From: Deltaproteobacteria bacterium
Lineage (GTDB): Bacteria > UBA10199 > SPLOWO2-01-44-7
Direction: 5' to 3'
NCBI GenBank assembly: GCA_023265595.1
Contig: JAHFSU010000019.1
Location: forward strand, 1-40,055
Length of the DNA stretch: 40,055 nucleotides
Shown here: positions 1 to 19,366 of the stretch, piece after piece
How the letters are laid out: every line of letters starts with the position of its first letter
Numbering within the stretch: the stretch's first letter is position 1
The notes under the pieces: model-generated
The model's database searches: none
Seen by the model: only the letters and a program-made list of their open reading frames with translations
What the model was told of the DNA's origin: nothing
Program-made: the position numbers and the translations under genes

Positions 1-774
1 TTCCTGAATGGTTTGACGGTCCAAACCCTGATTGACATTGAAATAGTTGAATTCGGCGTTCAAGGCCAAGCGGCTGTGGGGGTAAATATCGAGACCGGTT
101 GTAGCCTGACTGATCATCCGACCGGTGGCATCGGCCTCAATCAGGCCGTAGACAAAAGGGGTCATAGAGATTGCAAATTGATGAGACAAAACGGCCCCGA
201 CCTGAATTTCATCATTTTTATTGAAGTCGGTATTCTCCACATTATTTTTGCGCCACGCCACATGTAAAGCCGCATCTGTTTTTTTGATATCTCTCAAACC
301 CAAAGAGAGTCCGGTCAGCAAAACCGTGTTGGGGCTGAAATTTTGGACCTCGGTATTTCTGGGGATCCCCGAAAAGGCGGTGATGGCTAAATATTCCGTC
401 GGTTTGGCGGTGGCCTGAAGGCCATCTAAAATTTCGACCGAAAAACCTTGATTGATAAATTGCCGTCCCCCGTCGATTTGCAATTTTTCAAAAGGGACAG
501 CATGCATCACTGTCTGATAGAGATCGTATTGGTCGAGCTTGGCATCAAAGTCTCTGAAAAAACGCATGTTCGTTTCGACCGCAGTCTTTGAACCGTAAGC
601 GGAGCCACTGATATAGCCGTTAACCGGAAAAAGCTGGCGGTTTTGCGTATTCTTTTTGACCTCGCCCATAATTTTCGTGCCGATGTTGTATTCAGAGGCA
701 AAAGCGGGACCCTGGATCATGGCCCCGGGACCGAGGACAAAAAGCAAAATGGGAATGAATATTCGTTTTATCAT
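1..774 (-). CDS. Outer-membrane beta-barrel protein, 3' end outside window
   Basis: The reading frame is open from ATG at 774 to the window edge, giving 258 codons without a stop. It begins with a signal peptide (MIKRIF, a hydrophobic run, then a likely cleavage site after PAFA near residue 26). The mature part alternates polar and hydrophobic residues in short stretches with frequent Gly, Asn and aromatic residues, as in beta-barrel strands (for example RQFINQGFSVEILDGLQATA). Its start overlaps the stop of the upstream 18-haem lipoprotein (TGATG), so the two are probably co-translated. The neighbourhood suggests a porin that sheathes or docks a surface cytochrome, as in porin-cytochrome conduits, but no family was recognised. 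An ordinary porin is the main alternative. The barrel nature is inferred from composition; the C-terminal strand cannot be seen. Confidence 0.7.
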   Translation of the reverse strand, partial: MIKRIFIPILLFVLGPGAMIQGPAFASEYNIGTKIMGEVKKNTQNRQLFPVNGYISGSAYGSKTAVETNMRFFRDFDAKLDQYDLYQTVMHAVPFEKLQIDGGRQFINQGFSVEILDGLQATAKPTEYLAITAFSGIPRNTEVQNFSPNTVLLTGLSLGLRDIKKTDAALHVAWRKNNVENTDFNKNDEIQVGAVLSHQFAISMTPFVYGLIEADATGRMISQATTGLDIYPHSRLALNAEFNYFNVNQGLDRQTIQE

Positions 775-3251
775 CAACGTCTTGTTGTGAACGTCCAGCT
801 ATATCTGGTTGTCAAATGATTGCCGGCTTTGTCAGCGACGATAGTATTGACCCTCGCTGTGTAACTCAAGTTTCCATAGAGCTGTGTATTGGGGGCCAAC
901 TGGAATGTGACCTGCCCGCAGTCTGTGTTGGCCACGCAAACTCCATATTGCAAGGCCCAATCCCTTCCGCCTCCCACGAGGCTGAAGGCCCCGTCTCCTG
1001 TGACGCTGCCCGCATCCATCGGTTCGCTGAAGGTCACCTGAAGAGTCGGTGTTCGACTGATACTTCCGCCCCTGTTTATGGGAATGGTGGCAGTAACGGT
1101 TGGAGGTGTTGTGTCGACATAGGTGTTGGCAACGTTGAATCCCCAAGAATAATCGCTGACCATGGGTGTTCCATCAAAGTCTTTCACTGCGGCCGAAATG
1201 TTTACCTGATATGGAGAACCATCTTCTCTTAAAGGGAGAGTCGGTCGCAATGTTACTGTTTTGCACCAATCATTATTTTCGCAAGAAACCCGTATGGCAA
1301 CGAGCCCTCCTCCTATTGTCAAGGTAATTGGGTTGGGGTCGGGGGCGATACCGGTTAAACTGTTTTCCCGCATCGCTTCGCTGAATTGGATGATGATGAT
1401 AACATTACCGGCGACATTTGTTCCTCTGCTGGGGGGCTGTGTTGCAATGACTAAAGGAGGTGCCGGATTGATCAGTTCCGGTGGTGGTCTGCAAGGAACA
1501 ATCGCCGGAAGAGGGAGCACCCTTGTTCCGGTACCGTGACAAGAATCGCCGCAGGGAGATATATTGGCAAACGTGGTAAGTTGGAATGAGCGGTATCCTT
1601 GAGAATGACAGGAGCCGGCACTGCCACAGGTTGCGGCGGTGCCGGCAAAAAGGGGATTGTTTGTTCCCACATAGTTGGCATGTCCCCAATTGCTGACGGT
1701 TCTGGGACCACAGGTGGTTGCGATAACCGGTTCCCATAAAGAACGGACATTGTGATTGATAAAAGCGATGTGGGGATAGGCTGTGTGGCAACTATAACAA
1801 AAGGATTGATTGGTTACAATGGCGGGTGTTTGAGTTGTGTTGAATTCAAACGGTGAACCGTGGCAGTTAAAACATTTGGCACCATTATCGGTGGAACGAA
1901 AGCGGTCGGAGAAAAATTTGCCATGCCCATTTCCTGTGTTCCACGCCACACTATTCACCTGTCGGTGAGTGATGCCATCGGTGTGACAACCGATGCAGCT
2001 TGTGTTGTTCATCACTCGGTCAAAATCGGTCCCATGGCATCCGGTACAGGTGGTTGTATTGCCCCGTTTTGTTTCACGAATGAATCGGTCGCCATGAAAA
2101 CTTTCATCCCGCAAGTTTTCCTTTTTGACTTCTAGTGTCATCCATTTTGGATTGGTGTGGGGAAAATCGGCGTGACAGGTGCGACAAGAGGGGGCCTGTG
2201 GAGAACCTTCAAAGGATGTCCCATGACAATTGGCGGTGGCACAGCTATTTTTACCGGCCCCATAAGCATTGACGCCGTGTTGTGCCGCCTCCCGCCAGTT
2301 AGCGGGGTGAGGATAGTTGATGTGACAACTAAAACAGGAGACCGCAAAATTTCCTCCTTGCAGATTGTCACCGTGACAATTTTTGCAGGAGGTAAAATCT
2401 TTGTTGAGCGTTATTGCGGCATATTGCCCATGGCCTTCAAAAGTGTTCCAACCTTGAGGATGGGGAAATGTGGCGTGGCACTGTGTGCAGGCGACATTGG
2501 AAAGACCTCCCTGAAAGTTAAGGCCGTGGCAAGCGGTGGCGCAACTTTGCGTTCCGTTGGCAATGACCTCGGCCCCATGTTTTGTTGGGTTTCTCCAATC
2601 GCTCTCGTGCGGGTATTTGGCATGACAAGAATAACAGGAGATACCGCTACTCCCGCCTTTGTAGTCCGCTCCATGGCAACCTTTACAGGAGAGTTTTCCA
2701 TCCCCTTTTGCCGTTATCCCATGTTGATCTGCCGCATTCCAATTTTGAGAGTGGGGATAGATGGAGTGACAAAGTTGGCAGGATATCTTGCTCAGACCTC
2801 CTTTGAGATCGGTGCCGTGACATTGCGTTGCACAAGAGACATTTCCATTTCTTAAAACAGAGGTTCCATGCCCTCCCCCACTCACCCAACCCTCCGAATG
2901 TGGAAACAAAATGTGGCAGCTGCTACAAGCCGGAGGGCCTTCCACAGAAACCTGTGTTGTGGTGTGACATTTGAAACATTCGGTTGTTCCATTTTTTGAA
3001 ACCCAACCGCCGTGGATGGCCGGCTCAGCCCAGTTATCGGAGTGGGGAAATAAAGAGGGGGGCAAAAGGGAATCGCCCGGAGAGGGGGAGGTATCCCTAT
3101 CTGTTTGTTGGTCGGTCGGTGGTGCCAAGGGGATTTGTTTCGGTTTGCCGCAGGCAAGAAGGGCGATCAGAAGAAAGAGGCATATGTTAACAGGTACCAT
3201 ACGCACTATTATATTATCCGACGACTGTCTTTTCGATATGATTGGGATCAT
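774..3251 (-). CDS. 18-haem c-type cytochrome lipoprotein with C-terminal Big_5-like domains
   Basis: A signal with a lipobox (LIALLAC, Cys at residue 34 of the longest form) predicts an outer-membrane lipoprotein. I count 18 haem-attachment motifs: 13 CX2CH plus five expanded ones (CATQCH, CATACH, CGDSCH, CATANCH and CGSAGSCH). The first twelve lie in six tandem modules of about 45-50 residues, each with two haems and a PHxxxW ending, roughly residues 75-380. Six more follow to about residue 590. The rest looks like two bacterial Ig-like (Big_5) domains (QFSEAM, TFSEPM), typical of surface proteins. It is the fourth gene of a minus-strand unit after the NrfD-like subunit and overlaps the next barrel gene by one base. 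It probably moves electrons at the outer surface. The start is uncertain: 3251 overlaps the NrfD gene by 38 bases, while GTG at 3206 or ATG at 3200 would give a shorter signal. Confidence 0.88.
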   Translation of the reverse strand: MIPIISKRQSSDNIIVRMVPVNICLFLLIALLACGKPKQIPLAPPTDQQTDRDTSPSPGDSLLPPSLFPHSDNWAEPAIHGGWVSKNGTTECFKCHTTTQVSVEGPPACSSCHILFPHSEGWVSGGGHGTSVLRNGNVSCATQCHGTDLKGGLSKISCQLCHSIYPHSQNWNAADQHGITAKGDGKLSCKGCHGADYKGGSSGISCYSCHAKYPHESDWRNPTKHGAEVIANGTQSCATACHGLNFQGGLSNVACTQCHATFPHPQGWNTFEGHGQYAAITLNKDFTSCKNCHGDNLQGGNFAVSCFSCHINYPHPANWREAAQHGVNAYGAGKNSCATANCHGTSFEGSPQAPSCRTCHADFPHTNPKWMTLEVKKENLRDESFHGDRFIRETKRGNTTTCTGCHGTDFDRVMNNTSCIGCHTDGITHRQVNSVAWNTGNGHGKFFSDRFRSTDNGAKCFNCHGSPFEFNTTQTPAIVTNQSFCYSCHTAYPHIAFINHNVRSLWEPVIATTCGPRTVSNWGHANYVGTNNPLFAGTAATCGSAGSCHSQGYRSFQLTTFANISPCGDSCHGTGTRVLPLPAIVPCRPPPELINPAPPLVIATQPPSRGTNVAGNVIIIIQFSEAMRENSLTGIAPDPNPITLTIGGGLVAIRVSCENNDWCKTVTLRPTLPLREDGSPYQVNISAAVKDFDGTPMVSDYSWGFNVANTYVDTTPPTVTATIPINRGGSISRTPTLQVTFSEPMDAGSVTGDGAFSLVGGGRDWALQYGVCVANTDCGQVTFQLAPNTQLYGNLSYTARVNTIVADKAGNHLTTRYSWTFTTRR

Positions 3252-4410
3252 CTCTGTTCGTATTCGAAAAAGCCGGCAAAACGCGATTTAAAACAAAGAG
3301 GATGATAAAAGGAAGGATAAAGATAAGGATTGCCGCGCCGATCCCCTCTTTTTCCAAAAATTGCGGATGGTAATCCCTGAATCCTCGCAGACTCTTTGAA
3401 AAAATCTGGCCGCCGATGACGACATTCCAGCGCATCGCAAAAACTTGAATCAACAAAAGAAATGAGGCGACAAAAGCCAAAGTGTTCCGGACTTTTTCGT
3501 GAAGATATCGGTCGAGCAGAACGGTCACCATCAATAAAATAAAAGGGATGAGGGAGCCCAATATCATTTGGACAGAGATAAAAGAAAAGGCGAGTTGATG
3601 TGTCAGAAGGGGATGGATTACTTCCCACGATTCCGATTGTTCATAGGCGAGCGTGATGATTTCCAAGAGTTCCAAGGAAACGGTGACGGTCATGAAGAGC
3701 CACAAAAGTTGCGACATTTTGGTGATGCAGGGCTGATCAATCTCTTTTCCTCCCATCTTCATCGCGATCTGGTAAAGAACGATCAAGAGGGCGATGCCGG
3801 AGACCATGGCGGAAAAAAGAAAAATAATCGGCATCAGGGGGGTCGACCACCATGGGTTGGCCTTGATGGCCCCGAAGAGAAAGCCGACGTAGCCGTGCAG
3901 AAAGCAAGCCGAGGGAATTCCGACGGCCGCCAAAAAGACGATGATTTTGTGATCTCTTTGCAGGGCCTCGGGGCTGTTGTCATCGACGCCGAGGGTTAAG
4001 ATTTTGTAGAAAAATTTTTTTATCCCCGTTGATCCGTTTGCCATCTCGATGATGTCGTTGCGATAGAGAAGCCAGACTTCGAAAAGGACGAGGAGAAAAT
4101 AAAAATTGAAGATGATGCCGAAGCCGGCCATGGCGGAAGAAAAATGGGGGGTGATCATGATGTTCATTGCCCGTTCGGGATGCCCCAAGTGGTTGAGGAG
4201 CGGCAGTGTTGCCACGCACAAAAAGGCGAAAGAGGTGAGGAGGGAAAAACGCCCTAATGGTTTTAATTGTTGCATGTTAAAGACATGGTAGAGTGAAGAG
4301 ACGACAAAGGCGCCGGCGACAAAACCGGTGATGTAGGGATACATCACGATCATCAGACTCCAATGAATGTGGAGGTCATTCGGAAAAAGATATTGTGCCA
4401 CGGCGATCAT
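3214..4410 (-). CDS. NrfD/PsrC-type integral membrane quinone-interacting subunit
   Basis: This 398-residue protein has about ten hydrophobic segments in the NrfD/PsrC/ActC arrangement, beginning with YPYITGFVAGAFVVSSLYHV and a conserved LLNHLGHPERA stretch after helix 2. The family anchors an iron-sulphur partner and exchanges electrons with (mena)quinone in the cytoplasmic membrane. It lies 12 bases downstream of the ferredoxin subunit, with a strong ribosome site (GGAGG eight bases before ATG 4410). Tetrahaem cytochrome, ferredoxin and NrfD-like protein in this order resemble the Cbc-type menaquinol oxidoreductases of Geobacter and the Nrf, Qrc and Hmc complexes. No molybdopterin catalytic subunit is present, so the partner is most likely the multihaem chain. 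The direction of electron flow cannot be told from sequence. Confidence 0.9.
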   Translation of the reverse strand: MIAVAQYLFPNDLHIHWSLMIVMYPYITGFVAGAFVVSSLYHVFNMQQLKPLGRFSLLTSFAFLCVATLPLLNHLGHPERAMNIMITPHFSSAMAGFGIIFNFYFLLVLFEVWLLYRNDIIEMANGSTGIKKFFYKILTLGVDDNSPEALQRDHKIIVFLAAVGIPSACFLHGYVGFLFGAIKANPWWSTPLMPIIFLFSAMVSGIALLIVLYQIAMKMGGKEIDQPCITKMSQLLWLFMTVTVSLELLEIITLAYEQSESWEVIHPLLTHQLAFSFISVQMILGSLIPFILLMVTVLLDRYLHEKVRNTLAFVASFLLLIQVFAMRWNVVIGGQIFSKSLRGFRDYHPQFLEKEGIGAAILIFILPFIILFVLNRVLPAFSNTNRDDPNHIEKTVVG

Positions 4411-4422
4411 CGGTAGCCTCCT

Positions 4423-5208
4423 TCATCGGACTTCTTTGTCGAGTCCGAGATAAAAGCAACTCGGCTTTGTCAGTTTTTCCGGTTGCAAGACGGCCAGGCG
4501 TTCTGTCGCAATAATTTTTCTGACCGGGTCTTCCTCTTTTTTCACATCCCCAAACATGCGGGCTCCTACAGGACAGGCTTGAACACAGGCCGGCGGCAAA
4601 CCTTTGGTAATGCGGTGGTAGCACCAAGTGCATTTTTCAGCCGTTTTGGTGATGGGGTTGATGAAACGACTCCCGTAGGGGCAAGCCTGCACACAGTAGC
4701 CACAGCCGATGCAACGTTTGTCATCGACCAACACCACCCCCTCCTCCGTTTTGTAGGAGGCGCCGACCGGACAAACCTGAATGCAGGGGGTGTTAGAACA
4801 ATGATTGCACATTTTGGGGACGAAATAACCTTTGGAGACATTAAAGCCGGGCAAGATCGGGCCAAAACTTTCTTGTCCCCCTTTGGGAGAATCGACTTCG
4901 ACCTCGCCTCTTTCGGAGACCTCGTAGCGCTCGACCCAAGTCCTGAAAAAACCTTCGGGGACATTATTTTCTTTTCGACACGCCTCCACACACATCCCGC
5001 AGCCGATGCACTTTGTCGTGTCGATCACGTAAGCGTAGAGGTGCTCTTCCCAGTTGTAATTTTCATTGCCTTTGGGTCGGGGAAGTTTTGTCGTTTCTTC
5101 CGCAGGGATGGCTTTTTTGAACGGGAGCAGGCCGACAAAAAGAGTGGCCGCGGCGAGTTCGCAGCCTTTTTTAATAAAATCCCTTCTTTCCATTTTTTTA
5201 CATTCCAT
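4423..5208 (-). CDS. Periplasmic ferredoxin-type [4Fe-4S] subunit with Tat signal (NrfC/PsrB-like)
   Basis: The N-terminus carries a twin-arginine motif (RRDFIKKG) and a hydrophobic stretch, so it is probably exported folded. Four cysteine clusters follow, as expected for four [4Fe-4S] centres: CIGCGMCVEAC near residue 67, CNHCSNTPCIQVC, CIGCGYCVQAC, and CTWC with a distant CVQAC. This is the NrfC/PsrB/DmsB arrangement. It should link the quinone site of the NrfD-like subunit encoded next to the tetrahaem cytochrome encoded just upstream, which overlaps it by 11 bases. ATG 5208 is preceded by GAGG at a suitable distance; ATG 5193 would still keep the Tat motif. Confidence 0.92.
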   Translation of the reverse strand: MECKKMERRDFIKKGCELAAATLFVGLLPFKKAIPAEETTKLPRPKGNENYNWEEHLYAYVIDTTKCIGCGMCVEACRKENNVPEGFFRTWVERYEVSERGEVEVDSPKGGQESFGPILPGFNVSKGYFVPKMCNHCSNTPCIQVCPVGASYKTEEGVVLVDDKRCIGCGYCVQACPYGSRFINPITKTAEKCTWCYHRITKGLPPACVQACPVGARMFGDVKKEEDPVRKIIATERLAVLQPEKLTKPSCFYLGLDKEVR

Positions 5209-5707
5209 GTTGCCTCTTTATTTTGGGATCGTGCGGGGTGTGGCACGTTAAACAAACCTCGTCACTGCGCGGCGGCGCAGTCGGCGCAGTTCTTGAAATG
5301 TGTGTTTCCACGTCAATTTGGGGCTGTGTCTTAGGTCTTGAAGGAAGTTGCAGGTGACAGCGCAGACAAAGTTTCGACGATTTGTTGATCGGCATTTTGT
5401 CGACAAAATCCCCCGTTTCGAGATTGACATGCACTGACAACGGGGCGTGGCAATTTTGGCACTGGACTTTTGCGTGGCTCCCCTTTTGGTGTTTTTTCCA
5501 GATATCCTCGTGGCAGGCTGCGCAGGCCTCTTTTGCCGCAAACCGGGTCGGCTTATTCATCTGCTCTTCAACATTGTCACCGCGGTAAAAACCGTATTCA
5601 TTAAACGATTTGGGAATCAAAAAACCCCGAATCAAAAGAAGTAAAGCGCCGCCACCCAAAAGCAGGAGCAGGGCGCGAAGATAATGTCGATTGTGCCGCA
5701 TTGGCAT
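5198..5707 (-). CDS. Membrane-anchored tetrahaem c-type cytochrome
   Basis: One N-terminal membrane helix (YLRALLLLLGGGALLLLIRG) holds a periplasmic domain with four CX2CH motifs (CAACH, CQNCH, CLRCH, CLTCH). The small size and the position in front of ferredoxin and NrfD genes suit the cytochrome subunit of a Cbc/Nrf-type quinone-cytochrome oxidoreductase. I start it at ATG 5707. An in-frame TTG at 5716 and ATG at 5701 are alternatives, and none has a clear ribosome site. The CRP/FNR-type palindrome at 5743-5756 is centred 42.5 bases upstream of 5707, so transcription may begin at the start codon itself. This gene probably opens the second minus-strand unit. Confidence 0.88.
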   Translation of the reverse strand: MPMRHNRHYLRALLLLLGGGALLLLIRGFLIPKSFNEYGFYRGDNVEEQMNKPTRFAAKEACAACHEDIWKKHQKGSHAKVQCQNCHAPLSVHVNLETGDFVDKMPINKSSKLCLRCHLQLPSRPKTQPQIDVETHISRTAPTAPPRSDEVCLTCHTPHDPKIKRQHGM

Positions 5708-5742
5708 ATTGTTCAATTTGCATGGACCTTAATAAGGGGACA

Positions 5743-5780: not shown

Positions 5781-7379
5781 CTACTTTTTCGAAGTCAGCC
5801 ATCGGGCGAGGATTTCTAAATCTTCCGGAGTGAGAGAACTTTTGAACTCAGGCATGTTGGCCTCTCGGTTTAACCCCTGTGGATTTTCGAGGTAAGAGTG
5901 AATCCAAGAAGTCTCCCGAAAGGCGCCGATGTGGCTCAAATCGGGGCCGACCTCTCCCCCCTTCCCATCCATTTTGTGGCAGGTCTGGCAATTTTCCTGA
6001 AAAAGTTTGACCGCCTTGACCGTCGAAATCCCGCCGCCGCCGATGTCTCGCAAATAAGCGATCAGGGCGTAAATCTCCTCATCCAAAAGATTCAGCTCCG
6101 GCATTTTGGAACCGGGAATCACTGATTGCGGTTTGCGAAAATGTTCTTCGAGCCATTTGTCGGAGCGGGTCGGGATCGTGAAGGCCAAATCGGGCCCGAC
6201 ATTCCCCCCCTCCCCCTTCATCGAGTGGCAGTAGGCACACTTCAAATTGGTGTAGAGTTTTTTCCCTTCGAGGACCATTGGGTTTCTCTCAATGCGCGGA
6301 TTCAAAAGGGGAGACCTCCACCCTTGGTAGGTGAACCAGCCGAAAAGACTGACTGCCGTCAACGCAATCCCCATGCTGACAGGTCTGGCGATCGGATGCC
6401 TTTTTTCAGGAGAGCCCAAGAAAGGGAGAATCAATAAAGCAATAACACCGATCGTCGGCAAAATAATGGCGGCGACTGTTTCGAGGGAACCCGGAAAAAG
6501 TTTCAACATTTGAAATAAAAAGAGAAAGTACCATTCGGGCCGCGGGTTGTAGGAGCTGTCGTTCGGGTTGGCGGGGTCTTCCAGACCGGCGCCAAAATAA
6601 ATCGCCAAAAAAGAGAGGATGCCGATGACGAGTGTCACCGCGACGACATCTTTAAAGACCGAATAGGGATAAAACGATTTTCCTTCGCTTTTCAGTTTTT
6701 GATAGTCGGGGGGCTGTTCCCCTTTAGGATGGGGCGGTGCCGAAATGCCGTGGTAGATGACGAGGTAGAGATGCAATCCCATCAAAAGGGCCAGAAGCGT
6801 TGGCAAAAGCAAAACGTGAAAAGAGTAAAATCGCGAAAGGGTTAAGGCGCCGAGCTCTTCTCCGCCGGTCAACACTTTTGCAATGATGGGGCCAAAAATG
6901 GGGGCCTGTTTGGCGATGTTGATGCCGACGGCTGTTGCCCAGTAGGCCTTCTGATCCCACGGGAGGAGGTAGCCGGTAAAGCCCAATCCAAAAGTGATCA
7001 GGAGTAAAAAAATGCCGAGGATCCACGTCAGCTCCCGCGGCTTTTTGTAAGAGCCCATCACAAAAATGCGGAGCATGTGGAGGAGCATCAAGATAATCAT
7101 CGCTGAGGCCCCCCAATGATGAAGGGAGCGGATAAAAGTTCCCATCGGAATCTGTTGCATGATGTAGAGGATCGATTCGTGCGCATGATCTGGCGATGGG
7201 GAATAATTCATCGCCAAAAGAATTCCCGTTGCCACCTGAACCAAAAAAACCGCCATTGTGGCGGAGCCAAGCGTGTAAAACCATCCCCACTGTTTTGGAT
7301 TCGGGATTTTCCGATCAAAAAGGGTCTCTTGAATATTTTTCCAGCCGAAACGGTCCTGAAGCCATTTGAAGGGATGCAT
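5781..7379 (-). CDS. Cytochrome b fused to a C-terminal dihaem cytochrome c domain (bc-complex subunit)
   Basis: The first roughly 370 residues are a full cytochrome b. They carry paired haem-ligand histidines (LHHWGA and LLHMLRI; YSFHVLL and LHLYLVIYHG) and a PEWYF quinol-oxidation motif near residue 265. The last 150 residues form two class I cytochrome c units, CAYCH and CQTCH, each followed by a GGxVGPDL stretch and a candidate Met ligand in KMPEL or NMPEF. The protein therefore joins cytochrome b with a dihaem subunit that replaces cytochrome c1. It directly follows the Rieske gene, so the two make a membrane bc-type complex passing electrons between quinol and periplasmic cytochromes. 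ATG 7379 is four bases after the Rieske stop, with AAGG upstream. Confidence 0.95.
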   Translation of the reverse strand: MHPFKWLQDRFGWKNIQETLFDRKIPNPKQWGWFYTLGSATMAVFLVQVATGILLAMNYSPSPDHAHESILYIMQQIPMGTFIRSLHHWGASAMIILMLLHMLRIFVMGSYKKPRELTWILGIFLLLITFGLGFTGYLLPWDQKAYWATAVGINIAKQAPIFGPIIAKVLTGGEELGALTLSRFYSFHVLLLPTLLALLMGLHLYLVIYHGISAPPHPKGEQPPDYQKLKSEGKSFYPYSVFKDVVAVTLVIGILSFLAIYFGAGLEDPANPNDSSYNPRPEWYFLFLFQMLKLFPGSLETVAAIILPTIGVIALLILPFLGSPEKRHPIARPVSMGIALTAVSLFGWFTYQGWRSPLLNPRIERNPMVLEGKKLYTNLKCAYCHSMKGEGGNVGPDLAFTIPTRSDKWLEEHFRKPQSVIPGSKMPELNLLDEEIYALIAYLRDIGGGGISTVKAVKLFQENCQTCHKMDGKGGEVGPDLSHIGAFRETSWIHSYLENPQGLNREANMPEFKSSLTPEDLEILARWLTSKK

Positions 7380-7382
7380 CTT

Positions 7383-7865
7383 TTAAGCCTTCTCTTTTTT
7401 TGTAGTAGGAAAAACCCAGAGCTTTCCGTTTTCAATCCGGTTGGGGTAACGGTCGAGAGGCCGCGGCGGCGGGCCAGACAAAACCTCTCCCTCCATGCTG
7501 AAAACGCCGTTGTGACAGGGGCAAAAAAACTCCCGCTTGTTTTCATTCCAATTGTAGGGACAGCCGAGGTGGGTACAAGAGGGGTTGAAAATGTCAAAGG
7601 CCTTTCCATCTTTTGTCACAACCCATGCGGAGCGCTTTTCCTCAACCGTCATCCACCCATCTTTGCGCCGTTGCACAAATTCGATCTTTGTCGGTTTATC
7701 GACCGGAATTTTGTCGGCCTCGCCTAGAAAAATCCAATCCTCTTCTTTTTTCTTCCATGCAGGAGACAAAAAATAGGTGGCGGCGGGAGCAAGAATGGAG
7801 AGGGTGATCAAGGCCCCCAGTCCCAAAATGCCGTAATTTAAGAATTCTCTCCGGTTTATGTTCAT
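7383..7865 (-). CDS. Rieske [2Fe-2S] protein of the bc-type complex
   Basis: Residues 1-33 contain a Tat-like motif (NRREFLN) and one hydrophobic anchor. The C-terminal Rieske fold shows both cluster motifs, CTHLGC and CPCHNG, and a downstream GPPPRPL proline loop. It would accept the first electron from quinol at the cytochrome b subunit encoded next. The start overlaps the stop of the pentahaem gene (ATGA), showing translational coupling. At 160 residues it has normal length. No separate cytochrome c1 gene is nearby; the c domains sit on cytochrome b. Confidence 0.95.
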   Translation of the reverse strand: MNINRREFLNYGILGLGALITLSILAPAATYFLSPAWKKKEEDWIFLGEADKIPVDKPTKIEFVQRRKDGWMTVEEKRSAWVVTKDGKAFDIFNPSCTHLGCPYNWNENKREFFCPCHNGVFSMEGEVLSGPPPRPLDRYPNRIENGKLWVFPTTKKEKA

Positions 7866-8554
7866 GGTTTGTGTGTCAGGTCTTTGATGAGGGCCTCCGA
7901 CATTTCGGTCACCTCGGTGACGTTAAAAGAGTGCCACATCTGCTGTATTGTTTTGTAACGATCCAGAAATTGTTTTTCTTTCTCTAGTTCCTCTTTTGGA
8001 ATTTTTGTCCCATATTTTTGCGCCAGCTTTTTTTGATAAAGATCGAGGGAGCGTTTGGAGGCGTCAATCAAACTCAATGCCTTGGCCGCTTGTGTCGGTT
8101 TGCCGTGGCACAAGGAACAGGTCCGATCCATCTCCGAATATTTCATGACGGTTGTGGCCATTGCCCCGTGGCAAGTGAGACAGTTCGGCCCTTTGCCGGT
8201 TCTCTGCAAGGTTTTGTAATGGGCGCTTTTTTGAAATTCGGCAAATTCTGCTTTGTGACAGCGACCGCAGGTCTCGGCCACATTTTTAAAATAGACAGAG
8301 GATTTTTCGTCGCGAGAGGGCAACACTCCCTGATGCGCCTTGACCGGATCGGAGGTGAGGGGATTGCCGCCATGGCAGGCATTACAGCCTATCCCTTTCG
8401 CCGCGTGGATCGATTGCTGCCAGTCGGCAAAATTATGCTGGAGATATTTTATCGTTGCCTGTTTTTCGTGGCATTGGACGCAGGAATTAACGGCGGCAAA
8501 AGAACAATGGGAAACTAAAAAGAAACTAAAAATAAAGCCACCCACTTTCCGCAT
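7862..8554 (-). CDS. Periplasmic pentahaem c-type cytochrome
   Basis: A signal peptide (MRKVGGFIFSFFLVSHCSFA) precedes five CX2CH motifs: CVQCH, CNACH, CGRCH, CLTCH and CSLCH. A charged helical tail, probably coiled, covers the last 75 residues. It is the first gene of the Rieske/cytochrome b unit and overlaps Rieske by four bases, so it is probably the soluble partner of that complex. ATG 8554 is chosen; GTG 8560 in frame is possible. A palindrome of the shared regulatory type is centred 42.5 bases upstream of 8554, with a fair -10 (CATAAA, 8567-8562), suggesting a very short or absent leader. Confidence 0.88.
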   Translation of the reverse strand: MRKVGGFIFSFFLVSHCSFAAVNSCVQCHEKQATIKYLQHNFADWQQSIHAAKGIGCNACHGGNPLTSDPVKAHQGVLPSRDEKSSVYFKNVAETCGRCHKAEFAEFQKSAHYKTLQRTGKGPNCLTCHGAMATTVMKYSEMDRTCSLCHGKPTQAAKALSLIDASKRSLDLYQKKLAQKYGTKIPKEELEKEKQFLDRYKTIQQMWHSFNVTEVTEMSEALIKDLTHKP

Positions 8555-8589
8555 GAACACTTTTATGAACTATTTTTTTTCCGATGTCC

Positions 8590-8603: not shown

Positions 8604-8626
8604 ATGCAAGTGCCTTGAAAAAAAAT

Positions 8627-9298
8627 ATGCGGCAGGAAGTGAAACAACTCCCTCGAAAACTAAAGTGGGGCTTTCTGGCCCTTCTTATTTTGGTCTCTTT
8701 GGGATCCATCGGCCTTTACAAAGGCTATGACACCATCGAAAACAATCCGAAATTTTGCCAGAGCTGTCACATCATGGAGGGGCCTTTTCAGAAATGGCAG
8801 ATGGGCCCTCACCATCTGGTGAATTGTCACACCTGCCATAAACAGAGCAAACTCGACAGTCTCCATCAGGTCTGGATGACTGTGACACAGCGGCCAAAAG
8901 AGGTCGTGCATCACCCGAATTTGGACCATAAGGTTTGCGCCCAGTGTCATTTAAGCAATGATCCTCAATGGAAATTGGTTTCAGATACGGCGGGACACAA
9001 GGTCCATTTTGAAAAATTGGGGATTGAATGTCTCGATTGCCACAGAAAAGGGATTCACGAAATTGTCCGGCCGGTCGATGTTTGTGAAACCTGCCATGCC
9101 GATAAGTTTGAACGGAAAGACAAGATGGCCTTTGTCCATTGTCTGCAATGCCACAACTTTTTGGCGAAAGATCAAGATTTGATACCGACTTCCGCGGTCT
9201 GCAAGAATTGCCACGACAAGATTCAAACAACAAAACCCCATCCCCCGTATAAACAGGGGATGGAGTGCGTCACCTGCCATAAACCGCATGAGATGTGA
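8627..9298 (+). CDS. Membrane-anchored octahaem c-type cytochrome, NapC/NirT/NrfH-like
   Basis: One N-terminal anchor (WGFLALLILVSLGSIGLYKG) is followed by eight CX2CH motifs: CQSCH, CHTCH, CAQCH, CLDCH, CETCH, CLQCH, CKNCH and CVTCH. The opening segment (NNPKFCQSCHIMEGPFQKW) is typical of NapC/NirT quinol dehydrogenases, which usually have four or five haems. This one appears extended by further haem-binding domains. It could pass electrons from quinol to periplasmic cytochromes. It is transcribed away from the pentahaem/bc unit and stands alone. ATG 8627 is chosen; TTG 8615 is in frame. Neither has a clear ribosome site. Confidence 0.9.
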   Translation: MRQEVKQLPRKLKWGFLALLILVSLGSIGLYKGYDTIENNPKFCQSCHIMEGPFQKWQMGPHHLVNCHTCHKQSKLDSLHQVWMTVTQRPKEVVHHPNLDHKVCAQCHLSNDPQWKLVSDTAGHKVHFEKLGIECLDCHRKGIHEIVRPVDVCETCHADKFERKDKMAFVHCLQCHNFLAKDQDLIPTSAVCKNCHDKIQTTKPHPPYKQGMECVTCHKPHEM

Positions 9299-9394: not shown

Positions 9395-11329
9395 TTAAGG
9401 TGGAACAATTTTAACAGAGTCAGATCCAATGATAGGTATTTTGTCGGTGGTTTGTCCCTTCAAAAAGCCTTCCACATCCCCCTTCTGGAAAACGGTTGTC
9501 GGGGTATTAAAATGACAGACTAAATCCATGTAACCATCTTTATTCACATCTTCCGGATTACAGAAATTGAAACTTTGCTCGTCCCCCGTCCGACCGAAAG
9601 TGAGTGAGCTTTGATTCACCCGAGTCGTCACATCCAATTTTGCAGTGGAAAAAAGAGCCACAGGTATTTTTCCTTTACTACGGGGGTTGATGGAATTCGG
9701 AACGCCATCCGGTTTGATGTCAATGGCCATCTTAATGAGTTTTGGCTTTTCATTGCAAAAACCTTTTATTTCGGATTCCGAAAGGGCTCTGTTAAAAATA
9801 TAGACCTCATCCATAAAACCAGAAAACCATTGCCGATCCTTCAGGTGGTTGAGCACTCCTAAGGTGACCGTGCTGGGCGTTGCTGCGGGGAGCACTCCCG
9901 CATAGTTGCTGGTTCCCCCCAAGGCGCAATTTCTATAAATCATCATTTTTTGTCCGTCCCAAGTCGCTGCGACGTGGATCCACTGATCAAGAGGCGGGTT
10001 CAGGGAAAAGTTATAGGTGAGACCCATATGCTCATGGACAAAATGTTGTTTGCTATAGAGCCCGTTAAGAATGGAATCAATGTAAGGCGGACCATCATAC
10101 AATTCCAAGCCATACCCATTGGGGTTACCCGACCAAGCGGATAAACGGTATTTTGCTTTAGGGCCATTAATGATCTGTCCCCCTTGGGGCGCTTTATCAT
10201 GCTTCACCCAAGCCGCTAAAGTAATGGCATTGCGAATATCCAAAGAGGGCGATGCTCGTGTCTCGATATAGTCTCCATTTCGAGAACCGAAAGCCGCACC
10301 GCGAAAACGATAGGCACTATTTTCCTTATCAAACCGGTCTGTGGCTAAAGTTGCATTGTAAACGGTTCCATGATTTTCATTTCCACTTTCATCCATGGCA
10401 TTTCCGTTAAAGGGAAAATAAAGAACGAGTCCCGTACGATCGATTCCCGAGGGAATAATAGTGGGTGCCTTCTCAACAATGGCCTCCGACATGAAACTCT
10501 GGATTTGAGTGATGGATGTGTTCGGCTCCCACGCACTCAAAGACGAATCCAGTTTTTTATATTGATCCAAAAGATGCATGGCGCTTCCCTCCAAGATCTT
10601 GTTGATGTCACTCGGTTTGGGAGGATTCTTGCTCGCCATCCCCGCTTTCAAAGCCGTGACAAGATTGTTCTCTTCCCGACTTGGATTTTCAGCTTTCCTT
10701 TTATACTTTTCAAATAGCAACCACGGTTTAATGGTTTTTTCACTGACTTTTGGGGCGCACTCCGATAAATCATTAAAGGTCGTTGAAGCATGGCATTGAA
10801 ATAACACCTGCTGGGCGGCTAACGTGGTGGTCATATCACAATCAGAGACGACACTCTCGCCGGAAAATCGATTGGTTAAATCATAATGGTTTAAAAGTTT
10901 TCGTCCATCCGAGAGGGTCACTTCGCAAAGAACCTGTTTGCCTTCATCTAAAGAGGTGAGGGGGACGATAACATCTGTAATTTCCCCTGAGGAACTCACA
11001 ATACCTTTGGCTACCTCTGTTCCATCATAGCGCTTGCAAGTGATGTTTCCTTTCTTGGCCAGAATTTCCGTGACAGTGGCCTTGGAGACGCTCGAACCGA
11101 CCGTGATGGTGGTATCGGTTGTGGTTGGCGCTTGAATGTTTCCCCCGATCGTCACACCGTCAACGCTTTTGCCCGCGCTCACCGTCTCCGTCCCGTCTGT
11201 TGTTGTTCCTGAAGTCGGAGTTGAAGAGGAGGCATTTGTTACGCTAGTTCCACTGCCACATCCTGTCTGCAAGAATACAAACAAGGAAAGCACTAGTACC
11301 CGCACGACTATTTTATACGTCCCAAACAT
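9395..11329 (-). CDS. Lipoprotein with LamG/concanavalin-like domain
   Basis: The signal ends in a lipobox (FLQTGC, Cys at residue 24), followed by a Ser/Thr-rich linker to about residue 60. Roughly residues 310-540 look like a LamG-type jelly-roll domain: GLVLYFPFNGNAMDESGN, then ITLAAWVKHD, WIHVAATWDGQKMMIY and FSGFMDEVYIFNRALSESEI, the standard order for this fold. The last 100 residues contain a calcium-loop-like NKDGYMDLVCHF. No haem motif is present. A strong ribosome site (GAAGGAGG) precedes ATG 11329. It is probably a surface or periplasmic binding protein. Its link to the surrounding cytochromes is only positional, and the ligand is unknown. Confidence 0.8.
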   Translation of the reverse strand: MFGTYKIVVRVLVLSLFVFLQTGCGSGTSVTNASSSTPTSGTTTDGTETVSAGKSVDGVTIGGNIQAPTTTDTTITVGSSVSKATVTEILAKKGNITCKRYDGTEVAKGIVSSSGEITDVIVPLTSLDEGKQVLCEVTLSDGRKLLNHYDLTNRFSGESVVSDCDMTTTLAAQQVLFQCHASTTFNDLSECAPKVSEKTIKPWLLFEKYKRKAENPSREENNLVTALKAGMASKNPPKPSDINKILEGSAMHLLDQYKKLDSSLSAWEPNTSITQIQSFMSEAIVEKAPTIIPSGIDRTGLVLYFPFNGNAMDESGNENHGTVYNATLATDRFDKENSAYRFRGAAFGSRNGDYIETRASPSLDIRNAITLAAWVKHDKAPQGGQIINGPKAKYRLSAWSGNPNGYGLELYDGPPYIDSILNGLYSKQHFVHEHMGLTYNFSLNPPLDQWIHVAATWDGQKMMIYRNCALGGTSNYAGVLPAATPSTVTLGVLNHLKDRQWFSGFMDEVYIFNRALSESEIKGFCNEKPKLIKMAIDIKPDGVPNSINPRSKGKIPVALFSTAKLDVTTRVNQSSLTFGRTGDEQSFNFCNPEDVNKDGYMDLVCHFNTPTTVFQKGDVEGFLKGQTTDKIPIIGSDSVKIVPP

Positions 11330-12343: not shown

Positions 12344-13675
12344 ATGTTTAAAAAAATATTATTTATTTTTTTCCTTTCCTTCGTTGCTGCAACAACAGCA
12401 TGCAAAGGGAAACAAACCGAACTTTCCGAAGGCAAAAAAATATATGAAGTCCATTGCGCCGGCTGTCACGGTGTTAAAGGAGATGGCAACGGCCCCATGG
12501 CCAAATATCTTTTTCCAAAACCGCGCGATCTCACTGCAGGCATTTTTAAATTTCGCACAACGCAAGGGCCTGTTCCTGCCGATATCGATATTTTGCAGAC
12601 GCTGAAAGTGGGTGTTCCGGGGACTTCCATGCCCGGTTGGGATGTCTTGAAACAGCAAGACTGGAAAAATATTTTGGCCTATGTCAAAACTTTAAGTCCA
12701 AGATTGGCAAAGGGAGATGCCGGCAAGCCGATCGATCTCCCCGAAGAGCCAAAAAATACGGGTGAGTCGGTAGCCGGCGGCAAAGCCATTTTCGGTCAAG
12801 CCGGTTGCGTTGCCTGCCATGGATTGAGTGGAAAAGGGGATGGCCCTGCGGCCGGTTCCTTAAAAGATGTTTGGGGAAATCCAATCATCCCACGTGATTT
12901 GACAAAAGGTCCTTTGAAGTGGGGCAACGCCGGCCGGGATATTTATCGGAGTCTTTGGAATGGTGTCCCCGGAACGCCGATGCCGGCTTATGGAAACACC
13001 TACACCGGAAATCAGCTCTGGAATCTGGTTCACTATCTCCAATCGATCCAACAAAAATTGCCGGAAGGTTATGACCCCTCGAGTCCCAGACGCAATCTCA
13101 TCACCGTTTCCGAAATGTCGGGCCTCTTGCCCACCGATTGTGAAAATAGCGCTTGGCAAAAAGCCAAAGTCAGCCCCGTTTTTTTAAAACCACTCTGGTT
13201 TGAAAGGGGCGAGACGGAATGGATTGAGGTCAAGGCACTCCACAATAAAAAAGGAATCGCTTTTTGTTTGAGCTGGGAAGATGATCAGGTCAATATTTCC
13301 CCCGTTGCGAGCGATGCGGTGGCGTTGCAATTTCCGATCAAAAAGATTTCAGAGCCGGTGCAACTCCCCTTTTTGGGACTGGGCAATGCCGGAAACCCTG
13401 TAGAGTTATGGGTCTGGAAGCCGCAATCGACGCAAAGTTTTATTGCCGAGGGCTTGGGTACGCAACAGTCTCTTTCCAACGAACAGCCCCTTCAAGGCAA
13501 TGGGGTTTACAAAGAGGGAAGATGGTCTGTAAGGATCACCCGAAACACTGCCCAATTGGAACCGACGGGTTATCTCTCCTTTGCCCTCTGGGACGCCGAC
13601 ATTCCAAAACCGATGGGGCTCCATTCTTTTTCCGAATGGATGATCTACGAGATGGAAGGTGTGCCGGAAAAATGA
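12344..13675 (+). CDS. Dihaem cytochrome c with C-terminal ethylbenzene-dehydrogenase-type haem domain
   Basis: The signal could end in a lipobox-like ATTAC (Cys about residue 20). Two class I cytochrome c domains follow, CAGCH near residue 40 with GTSMPGW as Met loop, and CVACH near residue 155 with GTPMPAY. Residues from about 235 to the end resemble the EB_dh haem b-binding domain (LFERGETEWIEVKALHNKKGIAFCLSW-type strand pattern, ending FALWDADIPKP). In known systems that domain is the gamma subunit of DMSO-reductase-family enzymes, but no molybdopterin subunit is in this window. AAGGGGG precedes ATG 12344. The stop overlaps the next gene (ATGA). It probably acts as a periplasmic electron carrier or membrane-tethered haem relay. 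Confidence 0.85.
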   Translation: MFKKILFIFFLSFVAATTACKGKQTELSEGKKIYEVHCAGCHGVKGDGNGPMAKYLFPKPRDLTAGIFKFRTTQGPVPADIDILQTLKVGVPGTSMPGWDVLKQQDWKNILAYVKTLSPRLAKGDAGKPIDLPEEPKNTGESVAGGKAIFGQAGCVACHGLSGKGDGPAAGSLKDVWGNPIIPRDLTKGPLKWGNAGRDIYRSLWNGVPGTPMPAYGNTYTGNQLWNLVHYLQSIQQKLPEGYDPSSPRRNLITVSEMSGLLPTDCENSAWQKAKVSPVFLKPLWFERGETEWIEVKALHNKKGIAFCLSWEDDQVNISPVASDAVALQFPIKKISEPVQLPFLGLGNAGNPVELWVWKPQSTQSFIAEGLGTQQSLSNEQPLQGNGVYKEGRWSVRITRNTAQLEPTGYLSFALWDADIPKPMGLHSFSEWMIYEMEGVPEK

Positions 13676-14908: not shown

Positions 14909-16830
<1,922 letters not shown>

Positions 16831-16834
<4 letters not shown>

Positions 16835-17262
16835 TGCACCAACTCTTTATAAATCAGATGCGGTTTTTCGCCCTCTTTGGGAGGATGGTATTCGTTGGAG
16901 TGTTTGACCATCAGACGGTCGGCTTGGAAAATGCCGCTGGAGGCCAGCTTTCCTTCGACCACCACTCCCATCTCCTCTTGAAACATCTGCGGCGGTGTTT
17001 CGTGACTGATGATGGGTATTTCTTTCATGCCGTCTTTCATTTGAAATTTAAGAACTGTCTTTTGCGCATTCCATTCGATCGAGCCTTTTTTAACCATGCC
17101 GCCCAATCGGACCGGTTTGTTAAACGCCGCATCTCCTTTGGCCAAAAGTTCTGCCGGCGTCACAAAATAGACGATATTTTTTTCCAATTTGCCAAAGGCA
17201 AGATAGCCGAGCGCCGCGCCGATAATAACGATGCCGATAATAAGACCTAACTTTTTTTGCAT
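16831..17262 (-). CDS. ccmE: Haem chaperone CcmE
   Basis: One N-terminal helix (KLGLIIGIVIIGAALGYLAF) anchors an OB-fold domain of about 115 residues. The haem-binding His lies in MVKHSNEYHPP near the C-terminus, matching the HxxxY pattern of CcmE. It carries haem from CcmABCD to CcmF. ATG 17262 has GGAG six bases before it; upstream in-frame starts lack this. It overlaps ccmD by 16 bases and ccmF by 4. Confidence 0.96.
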
Positions 17263-17372
17263 AACTTTCTCCATCGGGCAAAAAGACAAAAACCGTAACC
17301 TAAAACAACCGTCCATGTGAGCAGATAAGCGGCAATCAAATAACCCTCTGCCCCTTTGATGACACCGGTCAT
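17247..17372 (-). CDS. ccmD: CcmD-like small haem exporter subunit
   Basis: This 41-residue protein has one membrane helix (YLIAAYLLTWTVVLGYGF) followed by a basic tail (RWRKLCKKS), the typical CcmD layout. It sits exactly where ccmD is expected, between ccmC and ccmE. GAGGAGG lies seven bases before ATG 17372, and the start overlaps the ccmC stop (ATGA). CcmD helps release CcmE from the exporter. The call rests on position and topology rather than strong sequence conservation. Confidence 0.85.
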   Translation of the reverse strand: MTGVIKGAEGYLIAAYLLTWTVVLGYGFCLFARWRKLCKKS

Positions 17373-18013
17373 AAACCCTCCTCTAATTCGCCTTTTCGTT
17401 TGGCTATTTTGTAGCGCCAGTAAATAAATAAAATCAGGAGACCCAAAAAAGCGAAGGCATTGAGACGCAAAGCCAAAACCATTGCGGGATCCATTGTACT
17501 CGGAGACGATTGCACTTGATGGAGCGTGCGCCACCAACGGACCGACATATAGACAATCGGCACGTTTAAAAAAATCAGCACACCCAAAGGGGCTGCCAGT
17601 TTGGCCCGCTTTTCCGGGTCTTCAATAAATTTTCGAAAGGAGAGATAGCCGACATAGAGAAAAAATAAAATGGCGGTGGTGGTGAGGCGCGCATCCCATG
17701 TCCACCAGACCCCCCACGTGGGGCGGCCCCAGATGGAGCCCAAACACAATGTCAAGCCGGTCAGTGCGACACCGACTTCTGCGGCGCTGGCGGCCAAACG
17801 ATCCCAAAATATTTTTTTGCGGATCAGAAAAAGAAGGCTTGAAACAAAGACGACGAAAAAGGCGATAAAGGAATTCCAAGCGGCCGGCACATGGGCATAC
17901 ATGATCTTTTGCACCGCACCCATCATCGCATCGGACGGGGTTTGCGTTAAGCCCCACCACTGCGCAAAGGCGAAAAATCCGAGAGCAAGAATTGCGGCAA
18001 TATATTTTTTCAT
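17369..18013 (-). CDS. ccmC: Haem exporter membrane subunit CcmC
   Basis: Six membrane segments are visible, with the WWD signature WGRPTWGVWWTWDARLTT around residue 105-122 and flanking histidines (MYAHVPAAW, RTLHQVQ) that bind haem. CcmC loads haem onto CcmE. ATG 18013 is preceded by TTGGAGG at good spacing; the longer form from 18037 has no ribosome site. At 214 residues it is slightly short for the family. It lies next to ccmB with one base between. Confidence 0.96.
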   Translation of the reverse strand: MKKYIAAILALGFFAFAQWWGLTQTPSDAMMGAVQKIMYAHVPAAWNSFIAFFVVFVSSLLFLIRKKIFWDRLAASAAEVGVALTGLTLCLGSIWGRPTWGVWWTWDARLTTTAILFFLYVGYLSFRKFIEDPEKRAKLAAPLGVLIFLNVPIVYMSVRWWRTLHQVQSSPSTMDPAMVLALRLNAFAFLGLLILFIYWRYKIAKRKGELEEGL

Positions 18014-18014
18014 A

Positions 18015-18695
18015 TCAAGCCTCCAATAATGGCTCAATGGCCAGAGTGCAAGCGGTCAAAAAAACAAGATTGTAAATCCCCAGAAGGGTGAGCCATGCCG
18101 AAGAACCCTCTGTCAAAGTCCCCTCCAACGCCATCTGCGTTGCATAAACGGAGGCCAAAAGCAATGGGATGAGCATCGGAAACAAAAGGAGAGGGAGCAT
18201 CGCTTGCCTCGCTTTTGTTTTGATGGTTAAGGCCGCGTAAAAAGTTCCCAAAGTGGCCAAACCCAAATTTCCCAGCAAAAAAGTGACGGCGAGAAGCCAA
18301 AAATTATCGGGGAAGGGGAGATCAAAAAGAATCATCATGGCAAAGGCGCTCGTGATTTGAATAATCAAAATGGTGAAAAAATTGGTGACGACTTTTCCCA
18401 AAAAGAGGGCCCTTGGGCTTGCGGCGTAAAGGACGAGGTGGTCGAGACATCCCTCCTCCAGTTCGGACTGAAAAGAGCGGTCGAGCGCCAAAATAGAACT
18501 AAAAAGGACGACGAGCCACAAAAGGCCGGGGGCCATTTTTTTTAAAAGATTCGGGTCGGTCCCTAGTGCGAAACTATAAATAAAAATGATGAGGAGCCCA
18601 AAAAAAAGGACGGTGTTTAAAATCTCCTTTTGTCGCAATTCCGAAAGGAGGTCTTTGTAAAAAATGGCCGAAAAACAGCGCAAAAAATGGGTCAT
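18015..18695 (-). CDS. ccmB: Haem exporter ABC permease CcmB
   Basis: This 226-residue protein has six hydrophobic segments. An early cytoplasmic stretch (KDLLSELRQKEI) resembles CcmB, as do LDRSFQSELEEGCLDHLVL and LGNLGLATLGTFYAAL. It pairs with CcmA to form the exporter that releases haem-loaded CcmE. The start overlaps the ccmA stop (ATGA). Confidence 0.95.
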   Translation of the reverse strand: MTHFLRCFSAIFYKDLLSELRQKEILNTVLFFGLLIIFIYSFALGTDPNLLKKMAPGLLWLVVLFSSILALDRSFQSELEEGCLDHLVLYAASPRALFLGKVVTNFFTILIIQITSAFAMMILFDLPFPDNFWLLAVTFLLGNLGLATLGTFYAALTIKTKARQAMLPLLLFPMLIPLLLASVYATQMALEGTLTEGSSAWLTLLGIYNLVFLTACTLAIEPLLEA

Positions 18696-19366
18696 AATAT
18701 AACGTCTCTCCGGATTTGGTTTGGCGGCCCAAAAAAACGAAGCGTCCCTTCGTTTAACGCCAAAATTTTATCGCATAAGGGGATTGTCTCCGGATGATCA
18801 TGCGAAGAAAATAAAATGGTACAGCCGGCCTTTTTTTTCTCCAATATCAATTCACTCATCCGTTTTTTTCCTTCCTGATCGAGATTGGTGTGGGGTTCAT
18901 CGAAAAGGAGGATTTTGGGATTTTTAATCAAAATACGGGCGACGGAGAGCCGTTTTTTCATGCCGGTTGAAAATTGGCCCACCCGTTGATGGCGATTATT
19001 TCTAAGACCCACTTTTTCCAATGCCTCTTCAATTTGTCCCTCTCCTATTTTTTCACCGGTCATGTTGGCGAAAAATTTTAAATTTTCTTCGGCCGTCAGC
19101 GCTTTGTAGAGCCCCAACTCATGCCCCAGCCATTGCACCTCTTCGCGAATTTTTGAAACCTCTTTGATGAGAGACTTTCCCAAAACAACACCCTCTCCGC
19201 GGCTGGGGGAAAGGCGCGTTGCCAAAATTTTAAGGAGGGTTGTTTTGCCACAGCCGTTGGGGCCCAAGATGGCGACAACTTCCCCTGCATTGACTTGAAA
19301 CGAAAGGTTGGAGAGGGCCCATCTCTTGCCAAAGCGGTGTCCGACATTTTTCAGTTCGATAATCAT
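18692..19366 (-). CDS. ccmA: Haem exporter ATP-binding subunit CcmA
   Basis: All ABC ATPase motifs are present: Walker A GPNGCGKTT near residue 35, signature FSTGMKKR, Walker B ILLFDEP, and the switch His in SSHDH. It drives release of haem-CcmE from CcmCD. It is the first gene of ccmABCDEF. No clear ribosome site precedes ATG 19366. The 175-base upstream region holds a palindromic repeat and two regulatory palindromes shared with the divergent cytochrome-porin gene. Confidence 0.95.
   Translation of the reverse strand: MIIELKNVGHRFGKRWALSNLSFQVNAGEVVAILGPNGCGKTTLLKILATRLSPSRGEGVVLGKSLIKEVSKIREEVQWLGHELGLYKALTAEENLKFFANMTGEKIGEGQIEEALEKVGLRNNRHQRVGQFSTGMKKRLSVARILIKNPKILLFDEPHTNLDQEGKKRMSELILEKKKAGCTILFSSHDHPETIPLCDKILALNEGTLRFFGPPNQIRRDVIL

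Follow-up and report, generated by a model that had tools for sequence, protein, structure and literature searches.

A modular, predicted 18-haem lipoprotein cytochrome, the probable surface component of a Pcc-type electron conduit in an uncultured deltaproteobacterium

Introduction

Does a protein with 18 haem motifs, five of them wider than CX2CH, bind 18 haems, and what would it do with them at the cell surface? The question is raised by a reverse-strand gene at one end of the DNA stretch analysed here (the window), which comprises positions 1 to 40,055 of contig JAHFSU010000019.1 (assembly GCA_023265595.1; 40,055 nucleotides) from a deltaproteobacterium of the GTDB lineage UBA10199; SPLOWO2-01-44-7. 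An earlier reading of this DNA, made without database searches (the sequence-only reading), had taken the product for a surface cytochrome of tandem dihaem modules that might polymerise.

Our analysis indicates that the gene very probably encodes the outer-surface cytochrome of an electron conduit of the Pcc type, like OmbB–OmaB–OmcB. More tentatively, and with somewhat less than even confidence, we propose that this cytochrome is a single-chain, extensible surface wire, in which dihaem modules are gained or lost by duplication (15–56 haems), which in most members ends in a terminal module with a CX5–7CH motif for its first haem, and which, matured by a single ordinary Ccm system, is docked to the Pcc conduit.

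Results

The open reading frame at 774–3251 (825 amino acids) contains 18 CXnCH motifs, as the sequence-only reading had counted: 13 CX2CH, three CX3CH (residues 140, 237 and 567), one CX4CH (residue 337) and one CX5CH (residue 542). Composition-matched shuffles of the 825-residue protein gave ∼0.1 motif per CXnCH class, and the observed motifs are thus far above chance. Translation probably starts at ATG 3200–3198 (M18), because the longer reading overruns the NrfD gene, whose end lies at 3214. The product from M18 begins MVPVNICLFLLIALLAC and continues GKPK, which constitutes a lipoprotein signal. Its lipobox cysteine, Cys34, is invariant in seven homologues with 37–55% identity to the window cytochrome; this conservation supports the predicted anchoring at the cell surface, in line with the earlier proposal of a surface lipoprotein. 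The Big_5-like domains that had been suspected at the C-terminus were recovered as two Pfam Big_5 domains (E = 2e-30), and this Ig-like tail is missing from most of the 27 homologues compared.

All 18 motifs are distributed over nine dihaem modules with the order PHxxxW – HG – CXnCH(G) – SCxxCH (Table 1). The tandem dihaem design described previously therefore stands, but the count of six modules does not, since the later haems are modular too. Modules 1–6 are regular (48–51 amino acids each), and the series of first motifs reported for them (CX2, CX3, CX2, CX3, CX2, CX4) is exact, as are the later CX5CH and CX3CH and the recurrence of PHxxxW, one copy of which reads PHxxxxW. For modules 7 and 8, alignment scores with the remaining modules are mostly 55–75 (range 29–75), compared with 9 ± 8 for shuffled modules; module 9 aligns weakly (9–38), yet as in the others two histidines, with the tryptophan between them, precede the two motifs. 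In modules 2, 4, 6 and 9 the motif of the first haem is expanded, and in module 9 that of the second as well. A four-haem super-repeat, formed by a CX2 module and then an expanded module, was also considered and lacks clear support in the module similarities.

Alignment of the seven homologues revealed exactly 18 invariant histidines outside the motifs, two per module (residues 70, 80, 118, 128, 167, 177, 215, 225, 264, 274, 315, 325, 365, 386, 429, 443, 494 and 524). The sole remaining histidine of the haem region, H500, varies. Because there are 18 such histidines for 18 motifs, ligands pair with motifs one to one, expanded motifs included, and both cysteines and the histidine of every expanded motif are themselves invariant. 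In the wider set, distal histidines equal or outnumber motifs in 27 of 27 homologues, with 0.97 additional distal histidines per expanded motif (95% confidence interval 0.49–1.27) and 1.26 per CX2CH. Of these proteins, 24 have CX3CH as their third motif and 21 have CX5, CX6 or CX7CH as the penultimate one, often as CGGGTxGSCH. Judged from the 18 invariant non-motif histidines and their arrangement in pairs, 18 bis-His haems appear far more likely than 13, with haem 17 (CX5CH) the least certain of those predicted.

The idea that expanded motifs may need special lyases found no support. A single CcmF/NrfE-type lyase, encoded within a System I maturation cluster in the window, was detected in the genome, whose 97% completeness makes a second one unlikely. 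A genome-wide PF01578 search recovered CcmF, CcmC and a third protein; the last was rejected as a dedicated lyase, as it adjoins hemA and is HemX-like. CcmG/CcmH-like genes lie downstream of the conduit genes on contig 59 of the same genome. A gene for a VIT-family (Fe/Mn) transporter (window 20790–21539) is found close to the maturation genes.

The genetic context points to a porin–cytochrome cassette. The stop of the 18-haem gene overlaps the start of a gene for a barrel-like outer-membrane protein, and an exact 120-base overlap between the end of contig 59 and the window start (1–120) places the assembly break inside this gene. Joined across the contigs, the putative porin has 418 amino acids and the C-terminal end SFRLDYLFDHKS, and the next gene encodes a 7-haem cytochrome of 189 amino acids, a protein with 43–72% identity across the class. 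On the other side, the genes upstream on the same strand encode, in order, a 5-haem cytochrome, a Rieske protein, a cytochrome b-c fusion, a 4-haem cytochrome, an iron–sulphur subunit and an NrfD-type subunit.

Relatives in the same bacterial class share this design, stretched motifs included, and have between 15 and 56 motifs, each protein being encoded by a single open frame. The cassette of surface cytochrome, porin, 7-haem and 2-haem cytochromes recurs, with small differences, at loci L022, L023, L024, L026, L027, L029 and L035, and in partial form at L025, L030, L036, L038 and L041. When 385 genomes were scanned, the porin profile matched 20 of the class (the window's own included), with weaker matches in 19 others. 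Among 18 places fetched outside the class, multihaem genes lie directly beside most recognisable porins, exceptions including L072 (no multihaem gene in the stretch) and L076 (porin not recovered as an open reading frame). L060 and L061 show the order porin, 7-haem, 7-haem and 8-haem cytochrome, the last with six CX2CH, one CX3CH and one CX5CH; in L061 (genome G055) the porin-profile match reaches E = 2e-35 and the adjacent 7-haem cytochrome belongs to the family found in the window's cassette. The published Pcc cluster of Desulfurobacterium and Thermovibrio has six typical and two CX3–5CH motifs (PMC4245776), and the gene order at L060 and L061, read from their sequences, fits it. No homologue of the cytochrome appeared in a scan of viral contigs, a scan of a collection of genome contigs returned one locus only, and in plasmid searches similarity in Caballeronia was limited to the Big_5 region.

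Several relatives illustrate the range of sizes. A single 1,762-amino-acid open frame (L039:9862–15150) holds 56 CXnCH motifs, and three tandem homologues (L037:956–8258) have 17, 28 and 27 (CX2–5CH counted). At the lower end, a 140-amino-acid, 4-haem putative lipoprotein with two like modules (L021:7671–8093; JAUWFQ010000066.1) is a minimal version of the repeat, and a smaller relative with seven motifs lies 3′ of the cassette in a genome of the same genus (L022:7076–8158).

Other genes near the conduit include one adjoining the operon (window 9395–11329), whose 644-amino-acid product has a Laminin_G_3 domain and resembles TafC weakly. A cytochrome c fused to a gamma-like domain of the type II dimethyl sulphoxide (DMSO) reductases is encoded at window 12344–13675, and a 1,134-amino-acid Tat-type alpha subunit of the type II DMSO-reductase family at L048:1–3402. 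These DMSO-reductase-family genes possibly represent a second respiratory system.

Table 1. Positions in the window of the cytochrome gene, its parts and its neighbours
Feature	Position	Strand	Remarks
Predicted 18-haem outer-membrane lipoprotein cytochrome	774–3200	−	Open reading frame 774–3251; probable start ATG 3200–3198
Lipoprotein signal	3150–3200	−	Residues 18–34, lipobox LLA-C; from sequence; Cys34 invariant in 7 homologues
Dihaem module 1	2910–3056	−	Residues 66–114; CX2CH, CX2CH
Dihaem module 2	2763–2909	−	Residues 115–163; CX3CH, CX2CH
Dihaem module 3	2619–2762	−	Residues 164–211; CX2CH, CX2CH
Dihaem module 4	2472–2618	−	Residues 212–260; CX3CH, CX2CH
Dihaem module 5	2319–2471	−	Residues 261–311; CX2CH, CX2CH
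Dihaem module 6	2169–2318	−	Residues 312–361; CX4CH, CX2CH
Dihaem module 7	1980–2168	−	Residues 362–424; CX2CH, CX2CH; by module alignment
Dihaem module 8	1785–1979	−	Residues 425–489; CX2CH, CX2CH; by module alignment
Terminal dihaem module 9	1527–1784	−	Residues 490–575; CX5CH, CX3CH; by His/Trp/motif order, weak similarity
Haem-17 motif CX5CH	1605–1628	−	CX5–7CH in relatives, consensus CGGGTxGSCH
Two Big_5 (bacterial Ig-like) domains	783–1460	−	PF13205, two stretches; best at 783–1115; first-domain limits approximate
Barrel-like outer-membrane protein (putative conduit porin)	1–774	−	N-terminal ∼258 of ∼418 amino acids; cut at contig end
NrfD-type quinone-interacting membrane subunit	3214–4410	−	PF03916, 2e-41
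TtrB/DsrO/NrfC-like iron–sulphur subunit	4423–5208	−	
4-haem cytochrome	5198–5716	−	
Cytochrome b fused to two c-type haem domains	5781–7379	−	
Rieske iron–sulphur protein	7383–7865	−	
5-haem cytochrome	7862–8560	−	
8-haem cytochrome, NrfH/NapC-like N-terminus	8615–9298	+	Divergently transcribed
ccmA-ccmB-ccmC-ccmE-ccmF, System I cytochrome c maturation	14909–19366	−	Holds the only CcmF/NrfE-type lyase found

Discussion

From the motif and ligand counts, the modules, the gene order, the lipobox, the recurring cassette and the single Ccm system, all read from sequence, we infer how the conduit would be occupied by haem, assembled and crossed by electrons. The exported cytochrome would be lipidated at Cys34 and would receive its 18 haems from System I (Ccm), two in each tandem module. 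At each haem the motif histidine would be the proximal ligand; the distal one would be the histidine of a PH or an HG. The ∼418-amino-acid β-barrel would hold the 7-haem cytochrome across the outer membrane, so that electrons could pass between inner-membrane complexes, the barrel-held 7-haem wire and the external 18-haem chain, which would end on an extracellular acceptor or donor. Candidate inner-membrane partners are encoded in the same operon, namely a bc-type Rieske/cytochrome b-c complex and an NrfD/iron–sulphur complex with small multihaem subunits. Since the genome carries genes for a COX1-type oxidase and for type II DMSO-reductase-family proteins, export and import of electrons are both conceivable.

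Some observations weigh against this assignment. The barrel is called not from a model but from homology, from a C-terminus like that of barrels and from amphipathic-strand peaks (15–19, versus 12–14 in shuffles). AlphaFold2 predictions of the cytochrome were unusable, with a pLDDT (predicted local distance difference test) of 34 from the single sequence and 46 for two modules with four alignment rows. In the window's genome the 7-haem gene is followed by ccmG/ccmH-like genes instead of a 2-haem gene. The homologues at L031, L033, L039 and L040 have no adjacent porin or 7-haem gene in the stretches fetched, and the identification of G055 as Desulfurobacterium (D. thermolithotrophum) is itself partly based on the motif pattern.

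In a rival to the 18-haem count, the five expanded motifs have decayed or serve structure only, and 13 haems are bound. We regard this as very improbable, even though covalent haem attachment to CX>4CH has little direct proof and has been posed as an open question (PMC4245776). Expanded motifs of decayed or structural type would not be expected from the joint invariance of their cysteines and histidines and of the 18 distal histidines, nor from a site that varies between CX5, CX6 and CX7 while its Cys, Cys-His and ligands stay constant. The CX3CH and CX4CH sites of MmcA bind haem covalently, as established by mass spectrometry (PMC11024163), and a haem motif of OmcZ tolerates a 14-residue insert that forms a loop (PMC9473688). 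With the MmcA sites proven and atypical motifs frequent among Pcc surface cytochromes (PMC4245776), expanded motifs are also not so rare as had been supposed.

A different function for the 18 haems has likewise to be considered. The polymer resembling known nanowires that the sequence-only reading envisaged gained no positive evidence, and we consider a nanowire subunit unlikely. Dense tandem haem modules followed by C-terminal tandem Ig-like domains do recall OmcZ, whose Ig domains are removed by OzpA before polymerisation (PMC9473688, PMC12307469), and the Ig domains here might similarly be lost by proteolysis. However, neither the single sequence nor a profile matched OmcS, OmcE or OmcZ among PDB sequences at E ≤ 1, the lipobox is conserved, the gene is coupled to those of the porin and the 7-haem cytochrome, and the Ig tail that such processing would remove is, as noted, not general in the family. 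Each of the 18 haems finds a ligand in its own chain, and a histidine borrowed from a neighbouring subunit, as in OmcS and OmcE, is thus not needed; and polymerisation is unnecessary for length, because a single chain can grow by the addition of modules. A surface enzyme, for instance one that reduces a particular soluble compound, in place of a conduit terminus is less probable still: some multihaem cytochromes are enzymes, and the CX5–7CH site is similar in type to the stretched motif found in the MccA/SirA sulphite reductases (PMC6976685), but at a catalytic haem one axial ligand would be missing, whereas here every motif has its ligand, with two in each module, and the cytochrome matched no enzyme family in Pfam or NCBIfam. 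The apparent bis-His ligation of all haems argues for conduction, not catalysis.

This assignment would widen the Pcc conduit type to an uncultured class, with the haem number of the surface protein apparently set by module count. A natural CX2-CX3-CX4-CX5-CX6-CX7 series in one family with fixed ligands would make covalent haem binding by motifs wider than CX4CH, left open previously (PMC4245776), amenable to experiment. It would likewise test whether one ordinary lyase serves all widths.

Among known systems, MtrCAB and PioAB share the general logic of a barrel, an inner multihaem wire and a surface multihaem protein, but the inner wire has 7 haems here and not 10. Their barrel is of ∼700 amino acids, compared with ∼420. 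Our porin matched nothing in Pfam or NCBIfam, MtrB/PioB models included, which separates it from that family, and no solved relative was found; a TIGR03509 search of the window's own genome was also negative, although its positive controls gave no match either. PCC3 of Gallionellaceae and other Proteobacteria similarly has a porin, and its extracellular cytochrome is rich in repeats and highly variable in haem number (10–63 haems); the large periplasmic cytochrome of PCC3, however, has a median of 21 haems, against 7 in the partner found here, and its conserved inner-membrane protein has five helices and two HX13H motifs (PMC5566968, PMC10734462), where the window operon has NrfD and cytochrome b. 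The OmcZ nanowire precursor (PMC9473688) also places a haem region before tandem Ig-like domains and has a stretched haem motif, but there is no sequence similarity, the insert is of 14 residues rather than 5–7, and the lipobox and porin cassette distinguish our protein. Repeats pairing an expanded with a CX2CH motif recall GSu_C4xC__C2xCH (TIGR01904), which the cytochrome did not match at E ≤ 0.1 in NCBIfam.

The closest likeness is to Pcc, represented by OmbB–OmaB–OmcB of Geobacter and by the Group III clusters of Desulfurobacterium, Thermovibrio and Denitrovibrio (PMC4245776). As in Pcc, adjacent genes encode a barrel porin of ∼400–430 amino acids, a periplasmic multihaem cytochrome and a diverse outer-membrane cytochrome with atypical motifs. 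Pcc porins have 18–22 strands and ∼400 amino acids; our barrel-like protein has 418 amino acids and profile-linked relatives that are mostly beside multihaem genes. The adjacent 7-haem cytochrome lies within the Pcc range of 5–14 haems, and 18 motifs with a conserved lipobox agree with an outer-membrane lipoprotein cytochrome. Both the porin and the 7-haem profiles match the apparent Desulfurobacterium Pcc cluster, and it is because L060 and L061 fit the Desulfurobacterium/Thermovibrio cluster that we place the conduit under Pcc and not Mtr or PCC3. It differs in its surface cytochrome, in which nine similar dihaem modules hold 18 motifs (15–56 in the family), whereas published Pcc surface cytochromes have 1–15 typical motifs, often with atypical ones too (PMC4245776), and also in its Ig-like tail and in the operon shared with bc-type and NrfD-type complexes. 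The best reading is of a conduit of the known Pcc kind, with the extensible surface cytochrome as a new variation on it.

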